A stretch of 64,000 nucleotides of DNA from Pseudooceanicola nitratireducens. GTDB taxonomy: Bacteria > Pseudomonadota > Alphaproteobacteria > Rhodobacterales > Rhodobacteraceae. Under the pieces are notes generated by a model that saw only the letters and a program-made list of their open reading frames with translations, did not search any database and had not been told where the DNA came from. Shown piece by piece: positions 12,436 to 47,935 of the stretch (position 1 is its first letter; every line of letters starts with the position of its first letter). The position numbers were made by a program, and so were the translations under genes. The stretch lies in contig NZ_FNZG01000001.1 of assembly GCF_900109195.1 (NCBI RefSeq), positions 558,001-622,000 of the forward strand, read 5' to 3'.

Positions 12436-13228
12436 AAAAAGGATTGAGGTCTGACTAAGTCGTGAGGTGCGATGCAAAGTGCGCCTTGCGTCTATCGCCA
12501 CGGTGCCAGCAGAACTACACAGTCTGCGGATACAGTACCGCAGCCTCAGGGGCTGCTTTCCGCTCGCGGTGTGGGCCAGAAAGACGGGCGGCCAAAGTGG
12601 CCCTCTAAATTTCGGCTTGCGGGGCGGGGGCAAGTACCTACGCGCGCAACGAATGCGCGCTCTCCGCCCGTTTTCCATCCTGCCCAGGCGCGGAGGCTAG
12701 GTCTCTTTTGGCGGAAATGTGGCTTAGGGCCACGGAGGCACGTTTAGATCGCCGACGTTGCCCTTTTAGCGTAGCTGGGGCGAGCGACGGACAAGGCGCA
12801 GCCCTCTAGCGCCCCACAGCGAGCTCAGCGGCCCATTGGAGCGCAACGATCAGCCTCTCGTCCCCGAAGACATACACATCGAAGGGGGCGGGAGGCGGAC
12901 CACATGCTCTCACCCCTTGTTCCTGTATACATTTAGTGACACTCCCTCCGAACTTCTCTCCAGCGAGTGGACTTCATGGCGAACTAGCTTACGCTCAAGT
13001 CCTTCTTTTTGAGCTCAAGCGTCTGGTGTGTGGGGAACACAGCGCGAACAGAGTGAGGCGTACTGACACCCTCCATCAGAATCATCTGCTATCTACAGCC
13101 CGTCTGTTGCCAGGGATTCAGCCGGCGAATACCTTTGCTATGAGAACGATTGCATGGGCGGAAACGCACATTCAGACGAAAGGATGCGCGAGCGTACTTA
13201 GGTAAAGGCGCAGCAACGGTGGACGGAA
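12436..13228. other. Gene-poor stretch inside the island
   Basis: 793 bases in which no gene is supported. Short open frames on the plus strand lack protein-like composition and ribosome sites. On the minus strand 12806-12973 encodes a protein-like tail ending IVALQWAAELAVGR but has no good start, and may be a gene remnant. A small inverted repeat (GCGCGC...GCGCGC near 12640-12660) is present. It could hold cis-acting sequences of the element. Confidence 0.4.
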
Positions 13229-47400: not shown

Positions 47401-47823
47401 TCAGCCTGGTCCAGGGTCGCCGGGCATATGGTCCCCCGGCCCGCCGGGGCGCAGCAGCTCATCCAGCATGTAGGAGATATCCTCGACCTCTTCGGCGATC
47501 ACATGGGTGACCTCGTTCTCGCGCTGAAGCCGGCCTGTGACCCGCAGCATCCGCCCGGCAATCACCGCGCGGCGGAACCGTTCGTAAAGCTTGCGCCAGA
47601 CGATGACGTTCACCACGCCGGTCTCATCTTCAAGCGTCAGAAAGATCACCCCCTTGGCGGTGCCGGGGCGCTGACGCAGGATCACCAGCCCGGCCACGGC
47701 GATCCGCGCCCCCTGTGGCGGCAGGTCCAGCATCCCGGCCGGAAGGCAGGCGGGCGGGCGCGGCCAGGGATGGGGATCGGGCTGGCGCGGATCGGGAAAG
47801 GGCGGGGGCGTGACATCGCGCAT
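47401..47823 (-). CDS. Stand-alone OB-fold protein equal to the C-terminal domain of DnaE2, SOS-box promoter
   Basis: 140 residues from the ATG at 47823 (another start at 47733 gives 110). From about residue 35 the sequence matches the C-terminal OB fold of error-prone polymerase DnaE2: RIAVAGLVILRQRPGTAKGVIFLTLEDETG followed by VNVIVWRKLYERFRR and VTHVIAEEVEDIS. The polymerase itself and the imuA/imuB genes are absent. A LexA box lies directly upstream. It is either a remnant of an imuA-imuB-dnaE2 operon or a small independent SOS protein; single-stranded DNA binding is inference from the fold. Confidence 0.7.
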   Translation of the reverse strand: MRDVTPPPFPDPRQPDPHPWPRPPACLPAGMLDLPPQGARIAVAGLVILRQRPGTAKGVIFLTLEDETGVVNVIVWRKLYERFRRAVIAGRMLRVTGRLQRENEVTHVIAEEVEDISYMLDELLRPGGPGDHMPGDPGPG

Positions 47824-47827
47824 ACCT

Positions 47828-47842
47828 GAACAAATAGCGAAC
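47828..47842 (-). promoter_or_regulatory. LexA (SOS) box, GTTC-N7-GTTC
   Basis: On the minus strand the sequence is GTTC-GCTATTT-GTTC, an exact match to the alphaproteobacterial LexA site. It ends four bases before the ATG at 47823, so LexA would block both promoter clearance and the start region; the true translation start could be the downstream ATG at 47733. It faces away from the ferredoxin gene. Confidence 0.75.
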
Positions 47843-47935
47843 AACGTAACGTCCTGCAAGCTTTGCGGGATGGCGCGGCAGATTGGGGGCTGGCAGGGCG
47901 GCAGAAGCATGTCTAGATACGCAGCGAACAGGTAA

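Follow-up and report, generated by a model that had tools for sequence, protein, structure and literature searches.

What does a gene do behind a LexA-type box if it encodes nothing but the last domain of a DNA polymerase? The question is raised by positions 47401-47842 of the window, by which we mean the whole stretch of 64,000 nucleotides analyzed here. An earlier note on this DNA had taken the interval for a gene with a LexA box that stems from the OB domain at the C-terminus of DnaE2, and this reading was borne out: the coordinates are correct, the ORF and an exact box are both present, and the gene is conserved as a free-standing unit matching only the end of DnaE2. Sequence comparison leads us to consider it likely that the gene encodes the C-terminal OB domain of DnaE2, the SOS translesion polymerase, from which it has become detached, and that it acts in trans with a DnaE2 lacking this domain.

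A DnaE2-type OB domain encoded on its own

The locus contains the following features:

47401..47823, minus strand: coding sequence of a free-standing DnaE2-type OB domain (P0001; 140 aa; ATG at 47823, stop ending at 47401), with a W-P-R-P-P segment at residues 20-24 and the OB fold at about residues 38-116
47828..47842, minus strand: LexA-type box GTTCGCTATTTGTTC (read 47842..47828), an exact GTTC-N7-GTTC 4 nt upstream of the OB ATG
47831..47838, minus strand: -10-like sequence inside the LexA box, with the letters GCTATTTG, less perfect than the 58-locus consensus TATATT
47854..47859, minus strand: -35-like TTGCAG, picked by eye in this genome
47948..48271, plus strand: neighboring gene from the ORF list, divergent from the OB gene, which from its sequence we take to be a 2Fe-2S ferredoxin; a synteny marker outside the proposed system

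Profile searches place the OB protein at the end of DnaE2. It matches the Pfam OB fold PF01336 with 49 bits, above the cut-off of 27, and its top NCBIfam model is the error-prone polymerase PRK05672 (1.1e-31), of which it covers profile positions 944-1039 of 1047 only. The score is far under the whole-protein cut-off of that model, as would be expected of a single domain. The next NCBIfam model, a DnaE1, follows at 5.2e-9, and the score against the SSB family PF00436 is 17.2 bits, below the cut-off of 26. The AlphaFold2 model of the protein contains five strands at a mean pLDDT of 82, and the top PDB matches returned for it by Foldseek are OB-containing proteins (for instance Stn1, asparaginyl-tRNA synthetase, and RPA). 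None of the ORFs surrounding the OB gene (44-52 kb of the window) encodes a polymerase core, ImuA, or ImuB.

The LexA-type box and the predicted promoter

GTTC-N7-GTTC is the LexA motif of alphaproteobacteria. By itself the motif is near chance, with 2 exact occurrences in the 64,000-nt window against 1.64 expected, and 136 genome-wide against 78 for the reversed motif. The second exact site in the window lies at 13035..13049 on the minus strand, and the count of two is about what chance yields. What exceeds chance is the conserved placement of the box upstream of the OB gene. The copies found free-standing in related genomes carry the exact box in 58 of the 61 loci inspected and in 75 of 79 loci from named genomes, with no reversed-motif control site in either set; the two sets have some assemblies in common, so these counts are not fully independent. 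Eight of the free-standing copies, all with a box, were picked up with a relaxed pattern, which also brought in the fused copy of G362. The three exceptions among the 61 are G035 (one mismatch), G192 (no box), and G340 (contig end), and one of the four named loci without an exact box is likewise at a contig end. The OB gene thus carries the box of the alphaproteobacterial LexA (SOS) regulon, and LexA would be expected to bind there and to make the gene inducible.

Alignment of 58 upstream regions on the box showed that the first six bases of the N7 have the consensus T-A-T-A-T-T. A TTG located 18-16 nt ahead of the box is commonplace in these loci (T-T-G at 88, 62, and 74%), and here it lies one base closer. 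The gap between box and ATG is most often 2 nt (30 of 55 loci, two of them fused, in one set; 52 of 79 named loci). With a -10 element within the box and a 2-nt gap, the transcript would be expected to begin close to the A of the ATG. The OB mRNA is therefore predicted to be leaderless or nearly so, with a promoter that LexA would cover.

The rest of the DnaE2 mutasome lies at three other loci

The source genome (4.06 Mb, 99% complete, 32 contigs) was searched for the remainder of the system. A search for the C-family polymerase domain returned two genes, one DnaE1-like and one DnaE2. The earlier note had taken the polymerase, imuA, and imuB to be missing; all three are present at other loci (on C19, C19, and C18, respectively), each with a LexA-type box:

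C19:200640-203642: dnaE2 without OB domain, about 400 kb away from the OB gene at C19:605404-605823
C18:501060-502721: imuB
C19:977663-978163: imuA, found by genome-wide search

The note had also raised the question of a full dnaE2 elsewhere in the genome, and what was found is a dnaE2 that ends where its OB domain should start. A Pfam scan of this DnaE2 detected the PHP, polymerase, finger, and HhH domains and no OB domain. The protein retains PLPLF near its C-terminus, a form of the clamp motif in alphaproteobacteria according to passages of a 2013 survey (PMC3919608). The 1047 positions of PRK05672 are tiled by the two genes, with DnaE2 covering 6-939 and the OB protein 944-1039, so both genes together make up one DnaE2, split in two. 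There is no covalent link between the pieces, as the OB open frame has only 186 codons and the polymerase lies at C19:200640 and the OB gene at C19:605404.

The ImuA of the source genome scores 31.7 bits against an NCBIfam cut-off of 150 and has no Pfam match, so its assignment rests on similarity to the ImuA of a relative. Dispersed imuA genes in the 16 split genomes are very divergent, with 35-44% identity to the ImuA of a fused operon (one example is L138 951..1697, minus strand). Given this divergence and the low NCBIfam score, annotation pipelines may overlook them. In a tblastn search, the 9-kb imuB loci of split genomes contained no imuA. The idea that imuA is absent from split genomes was rejected when a genome-wide search found it at a fourth locus, in the source genome and in all 15 other relatives having both pieces of DnaE2.

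Boxes are conserved at these loci as well. Upstream of dnaE2, GAAC-N7-GAAT occurs in 16 of 17 split loci of near relatives, including G009 and G034, where it was found on a second check; the remaining locus (G001) is cut by a contig end. All 20 loci from further genera have the dnaE2 box with at most one mismatch (reversed control: 3 sites, one orientation only), 7 of them exact and 13 deviating at the same base. An exact GAAC-N7-GAAC lies upstream of imuB in 17/17 split genomes, and imuA has an exact box in 16/16. Two consensus groups of LexA sites, GTTC and GAAC, are distinguished in passages of PMC6473078. The putative mutasome is thus spread over four loci (OB, dnaE2, imuB, and imuA), each with a LexA-type box. 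In G034 (L063, G034:C1:1555000-1564000), the DnaE2 gene lies in two frames of 188 and 901 codons, either a damaged gene or a sequencing error, and the free OB and its box are intact.

The difference between the boxes bears on an addition to the trans model, in which the split serves as a timing device, a two-key lock. The operators of dnaE2 (mostly GAAC-N7-GAAT) and OB (exact GTTC-N7-GTTC) would differ in strength, and the complete enzyme would form only at a particular strength or duration of the SOS response. A dnaE2 box that is off at the same base in 13 of the 20 genera and in 16/17 near-relative loci fits this idea, as do the exact boxes of OB (58/61), imuA (16/16), and imuB (17/17). If the dnaE2 box is indeed the weaker one, the polymerase would be released ahead of the OB protein, an order that would fit a lock. 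However, the dnaE2 box is exact in 7 of the 20 genera, and operator strength is gauged here from the match to the consensus. We regard the timing device as doubtful.

Co-occurrence of the free OB and OB-less DnaE2

Among 60 relatives, 36 belong to the same family. A free OB together with an OB-less DnaE2 occurs in 16 of these, neither piece in 19 (DnaE2 being fused or lacking), the polymerase alone in one (G020, 66% complete), and the OB alone in none. A short OB frame in G030 was excluded as the contig-end piece of a fused copy, since the fragment ends in SRDFH. In the 24 relatives outside the family, every OB match lies in a frame above 1000 aa.

A wider survey of 394 genomes of this large, mostly marine family, nearly one per genus, found a free OB in at least 170. 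An OB match is present in 348 of them, of which 150 and a further 80 were classified; the 118 weaker matches were left unclassified, so 170 is a lower bound. Of the first 150 matches, 149 are free-standing (open frame of at most 520 codons in 148, plus G192) and one is fused (G362). G192 was counted as free-standing since its frame, 683 codons by the search, has 132 codons in the fetched DNA. From the next 80 genomes, 21 were counted, with E values of 1e-41 or better. Nine further short frames, with E values above 1e-40, were not counted and are assumed to be fused copies broken at contig ends, which was checked for G030 only. Among named genomes (the best 80 of 593), 79 have the sought motif, and the OB is free-standing in 79/79. 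The carriers include Ruegeria, Roseivivax, Marivita, Roseovarius, Shimia, Pelagimonas, Tropicimonas, Rhodovulum, Gemmobacter, and Planktomarina.

The two pieces are nearly always found together. Genera with a free OB also have an OB-less DnaE2 in 58/60 and 76/80 cases in two batches, or 134 of 140 in all, while among 20 genera without an OB match (20 listed of 46), DnaE2 is absent from 16 and present in OB-less form in 4. In the counts over these 140 and 20 genera, "OB-less" was deduced from the sole OB match of a genome lying elsewhere and not from reading every C-terminus. Fisher's exact test on 58/60 versus 4/20 gives p=2.4e-11, without correction for the tree. Two OB matches each were found in G080, G336, G281, and G366; for G336, which also has a second DnaE2, the OB-less polymerase was counted on the strength of a fragment at a contig edge (77% identity). 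On a DnaE1 tree of the 36 genomes, the best tree has 8 trait changes (7 when the very long branch of G035 was dropped together with G020), and both traits change together each time except in G020. Well-supported branches leave 2-3 independent pairs of co-loss, and the sign test is not significant.

The exceptions fall into two groups, both of which count against the trans model. Six of the 140 free-OB genera have no OB-less DnaE2: no DnaE2 was found in G096 (100% complete), G106 (91%), G163 (84%), and G403 (77%), and only a fused DnaE2 in G281 (100%) and G366 (71%). Those in the two complete genomes are hard to put down to bad assembly:

G096:C4:2083561-2083959: free OB of G096, with no DnaE2 in the genome at E 1e-150
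G281:C33:517865-518194 (L294): free OB of G281, with a fused DnaE2 of 53% identity at G281:C26:105049-107973

Conversely, the four of the 20 OB-negative genera with an OB-less DnaE2 are G089, G109, G143, and G187. In G089 (99% complete; polymerase at L129, G089:C77:36500-42500), there is no OB match even at E 0.01, which makes this genome either a natural test of an OB-less DnaE2 working alone or a case of an assembly gap.

These genomes speak for the main rival to the trans model, in which the freed OB became an ssDNA-binding protein in its own right, induced in the SOS response and modulating RecA, SSB, or some other polymerase, while DnaE2 functions in its absence. G096 and G281 keep a free OB without an OB-less DnaE2, and G089, G109, G143, and G187 keep the polymerase with no OB detected. 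An OB-fold protein with its own promoter and box would suit such a role, and the W-P-x-P-P segment ahead of the fold could dock on another partner. Yet 134 of 140 free-OB genera retain the OB-less DnaE2, and the OB-only state was found in 0/36 family genomes among the relatives. Taken with the linker and the rate of the OB core described below, this leaves the independent role an unlikely reading.

Origin of the split

In a tree of 24 DnaE2 cores, the 17 OB-less polymerases group together as a single clade (SH-aLRT 99.6), with the fused pair G320 and G362 as its sister. The 17 split DnaE2s stop 1-46 residues past the motif R[LM][TS]L[RK]xHP...L[TS]P, whereas the 7 fused ones continue from it into the OB domain. 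A W-P-x-P-P or W-H-x-P-P segment precedes the fold in 58 of 61 free OBs, and W-P-x-P-P in 69 of the 79 from named genomes. The linker of the fused G362 DnaE2 contains PWPRPPACL, a stretch like those found ahead of the fold in most free OBs, so the break probably occurred just ahead of the W-P-x-P-P segment. That this segment was already in the linker of a fused polymerase also argues against the independent role.

The ends of the two products differ from those of fused DnaE2 in another respect. An SRDF[H/R] motif is described at the C-terminus of about 77% of DnaE2 in passages of PMC3919608. It is present in 6 of the 7 fused ends (G320 ends in AREFR) and in 0/17 split polymerase ends; the end of G002, outside this count, is likewise without it. 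All 20 free OBs that were aligned also lack the tail. The tree, with all 17 split polymerases ending after the same motif, suggests that a single fission, in an ancestor of many Rhodobacteraceae, probably parted the OB domain from the polymerase.

Selection and constraint

The OB gene is under purifying selection, with dN/dS of 0.11-0.23 (ten pairs of near relatives); the values for DnaE2 are 0.11-0.14 (three pairs). Selection on the OB gene bears on the possibility that it is merely what an internal deletion has left behind, or the decaying end of an imuA-imuB-dnaE2 operon that once stood here. The locus does hold just a single domain of a known protein, and the earlier note had named, as the case that would reduce the gene to a remnant, a full operon at this spot in relatives together with a lack of purifying selection. 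The dN/dS values do not support that case, and the box and the free-standing state (seen in 170 or more of the 394 family genomes) are conserved. In 76 of 80 named loci the ferredoxin gene is the divergent neighbor of the OB gene; it is also present in 15/15 relative loci, and the split polymerases form one old clade. On these grounds we rejected the remnant reading, which we consider highly improbable.

The OB core furthermore keeps the same relative rate whether or not it is attached to the polymerase. The ratio of OB-core to polymerase distance is 0.87 where DnaE2 is split and 0.85 where it is fused, and there are 0 fixed differences in 79 columns between split and fused OB cores (15 split, 7 fused). 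Had the domain acquired a new function, a shift in its constraint should be seen. The unchanged rate and the absence of a fixed difference thus weigh against the independent role, and unchanged constraint together with co-occurrence favors an OB domain that is doing its old job in trans. A Mantel correlation of r=0.80 may reflect shared species history alone and is taken as consistent only. An AlphaFold2 model of the fused G320 DnaE2 was poor (pLDDT 58) and was excluded from the argument.

A model for an OB domain acting in trans

In the model that we prefer, fission parted the polymerase, with its PHP, palm, fingers, HhH, and PLPLF clamp motif, from the OB domain, and the two genes came to lie far apart. 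Since imuA and imuB are likewise separate, the result would be a four-locus mutasome under LexA-type boxes. DNA damage would release LexA from all four loci, and the small OB protein would be translated from a leaderless or nearly leaderless mRNA. It would then join the OB-less DnaE2, with ImuA and ImuB, and provide the domain that handles ssDNA or template in trans. Along with the exceptional genomes, a dnaE2 box that is mostly one base off consensus counts against this model. The more specific proposal is a two-piece translesion polymerase present in at least 170 of 394 genomes, in which the OB is a subunit of its own, induced in the SOS response and translated from a leaderless mRNA under LexA repression, and mutagenesis by the four-locus mutasome needs two independently timed products. 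We put this forward tentatively, as a possibility somewhat less probable than its opposite.

We regard the underlying arrangement as a real variant of the DnaE2 mutasome, old and widespread, with the OB of the polymerase turned into a separate gene that has a LexA-type box. A stand-alone nucleic-acid-binding domain that is damage-inducible, as predicted here, would offer a natural test of the role of the OB in C-family polymerases, and the same system would test the idea that mutagenesis is gated in cells by keeping one domain back. The bacteria concerned (Ruegeria, Roseovarius, Shimia, Rhodovulum, and others) are a common group, and their mutasome would be misread by surveys that seek only an imuA-imuB-dnaE2 operon or a DnaE2 of full length.

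Comparison with known systems

The literature searched, with older imu-cassette and LexA-regulon papers outside its coverage, contained no description of a split DnaE2 or a free OB gene. The 2013 survey reports several DnaE2 proteins without an OB domain, and the passages concerned give no separate OB gene (PMC3919608); the split may explain some of these sequences. In a 2026 survey, multimeric error-prone polymerases are divided into 11 types, one feature among them being an ImuB split into iPolY and ImuB-C; its main text has no match for "OB domain", "OB-fold", or "Rhodobacter", and OB occurs only among the domain labels of a figure legend (PMC12926913). The main text of a D. shibae LexA study, to the extent available, has no match for dnaE or imuB (PMC6473078).

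Compared with the ImuA-ImuB-DnaE2 mutasome, homologs of all three proteins are present in the source genome with LexA-type boxes. The LexA-controlled imu cassette can be contiguous or split according to passages of PMC3919608, whereas here four single genes occupy separate loci without an operon, and DnaE2 lacks the OB domain and the tail motif. Fused imuA-imuB-dnaE2 operons, some on plasmids, occur in the same family and are built from the same protein families; they differ from the split set in that the OB is attached and the SRDFH tail is present in 6 of the 7 examined. Such a cassette lies on a plasmid of D. shibae (PMC9426580). A match was found in 829 plasmid records, none of which has a single place covering 80% of the query; among the 25 listed, 21 are annotated as error-prone DNA polymerase and 4 are unannotated. 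In genus g1, some genomes (L065 and L067) have a fused dnaE2 beside imuB, and in L065 imuA too, in place of the split set. It is possible that a mobile operon has replaced the chromosomal split form.

With SSB the OB protein has the OB fold in common, while its PF00436 score stays under the cut-off (17.2 versus 26 bits). The closest known counterpart is the C-terminal OB of DnaE2 itself. The free form differs from it in that a gene of its own, with a box of its own, encodes it some 400 kb away from the polymerase in this genome, and in lacking the SRDF[HR] tail, but it corresponds to the same region of PRK05672 (944-1039), has the same predicted OB fold, and shows 0 fixed differences in 79 core columns.
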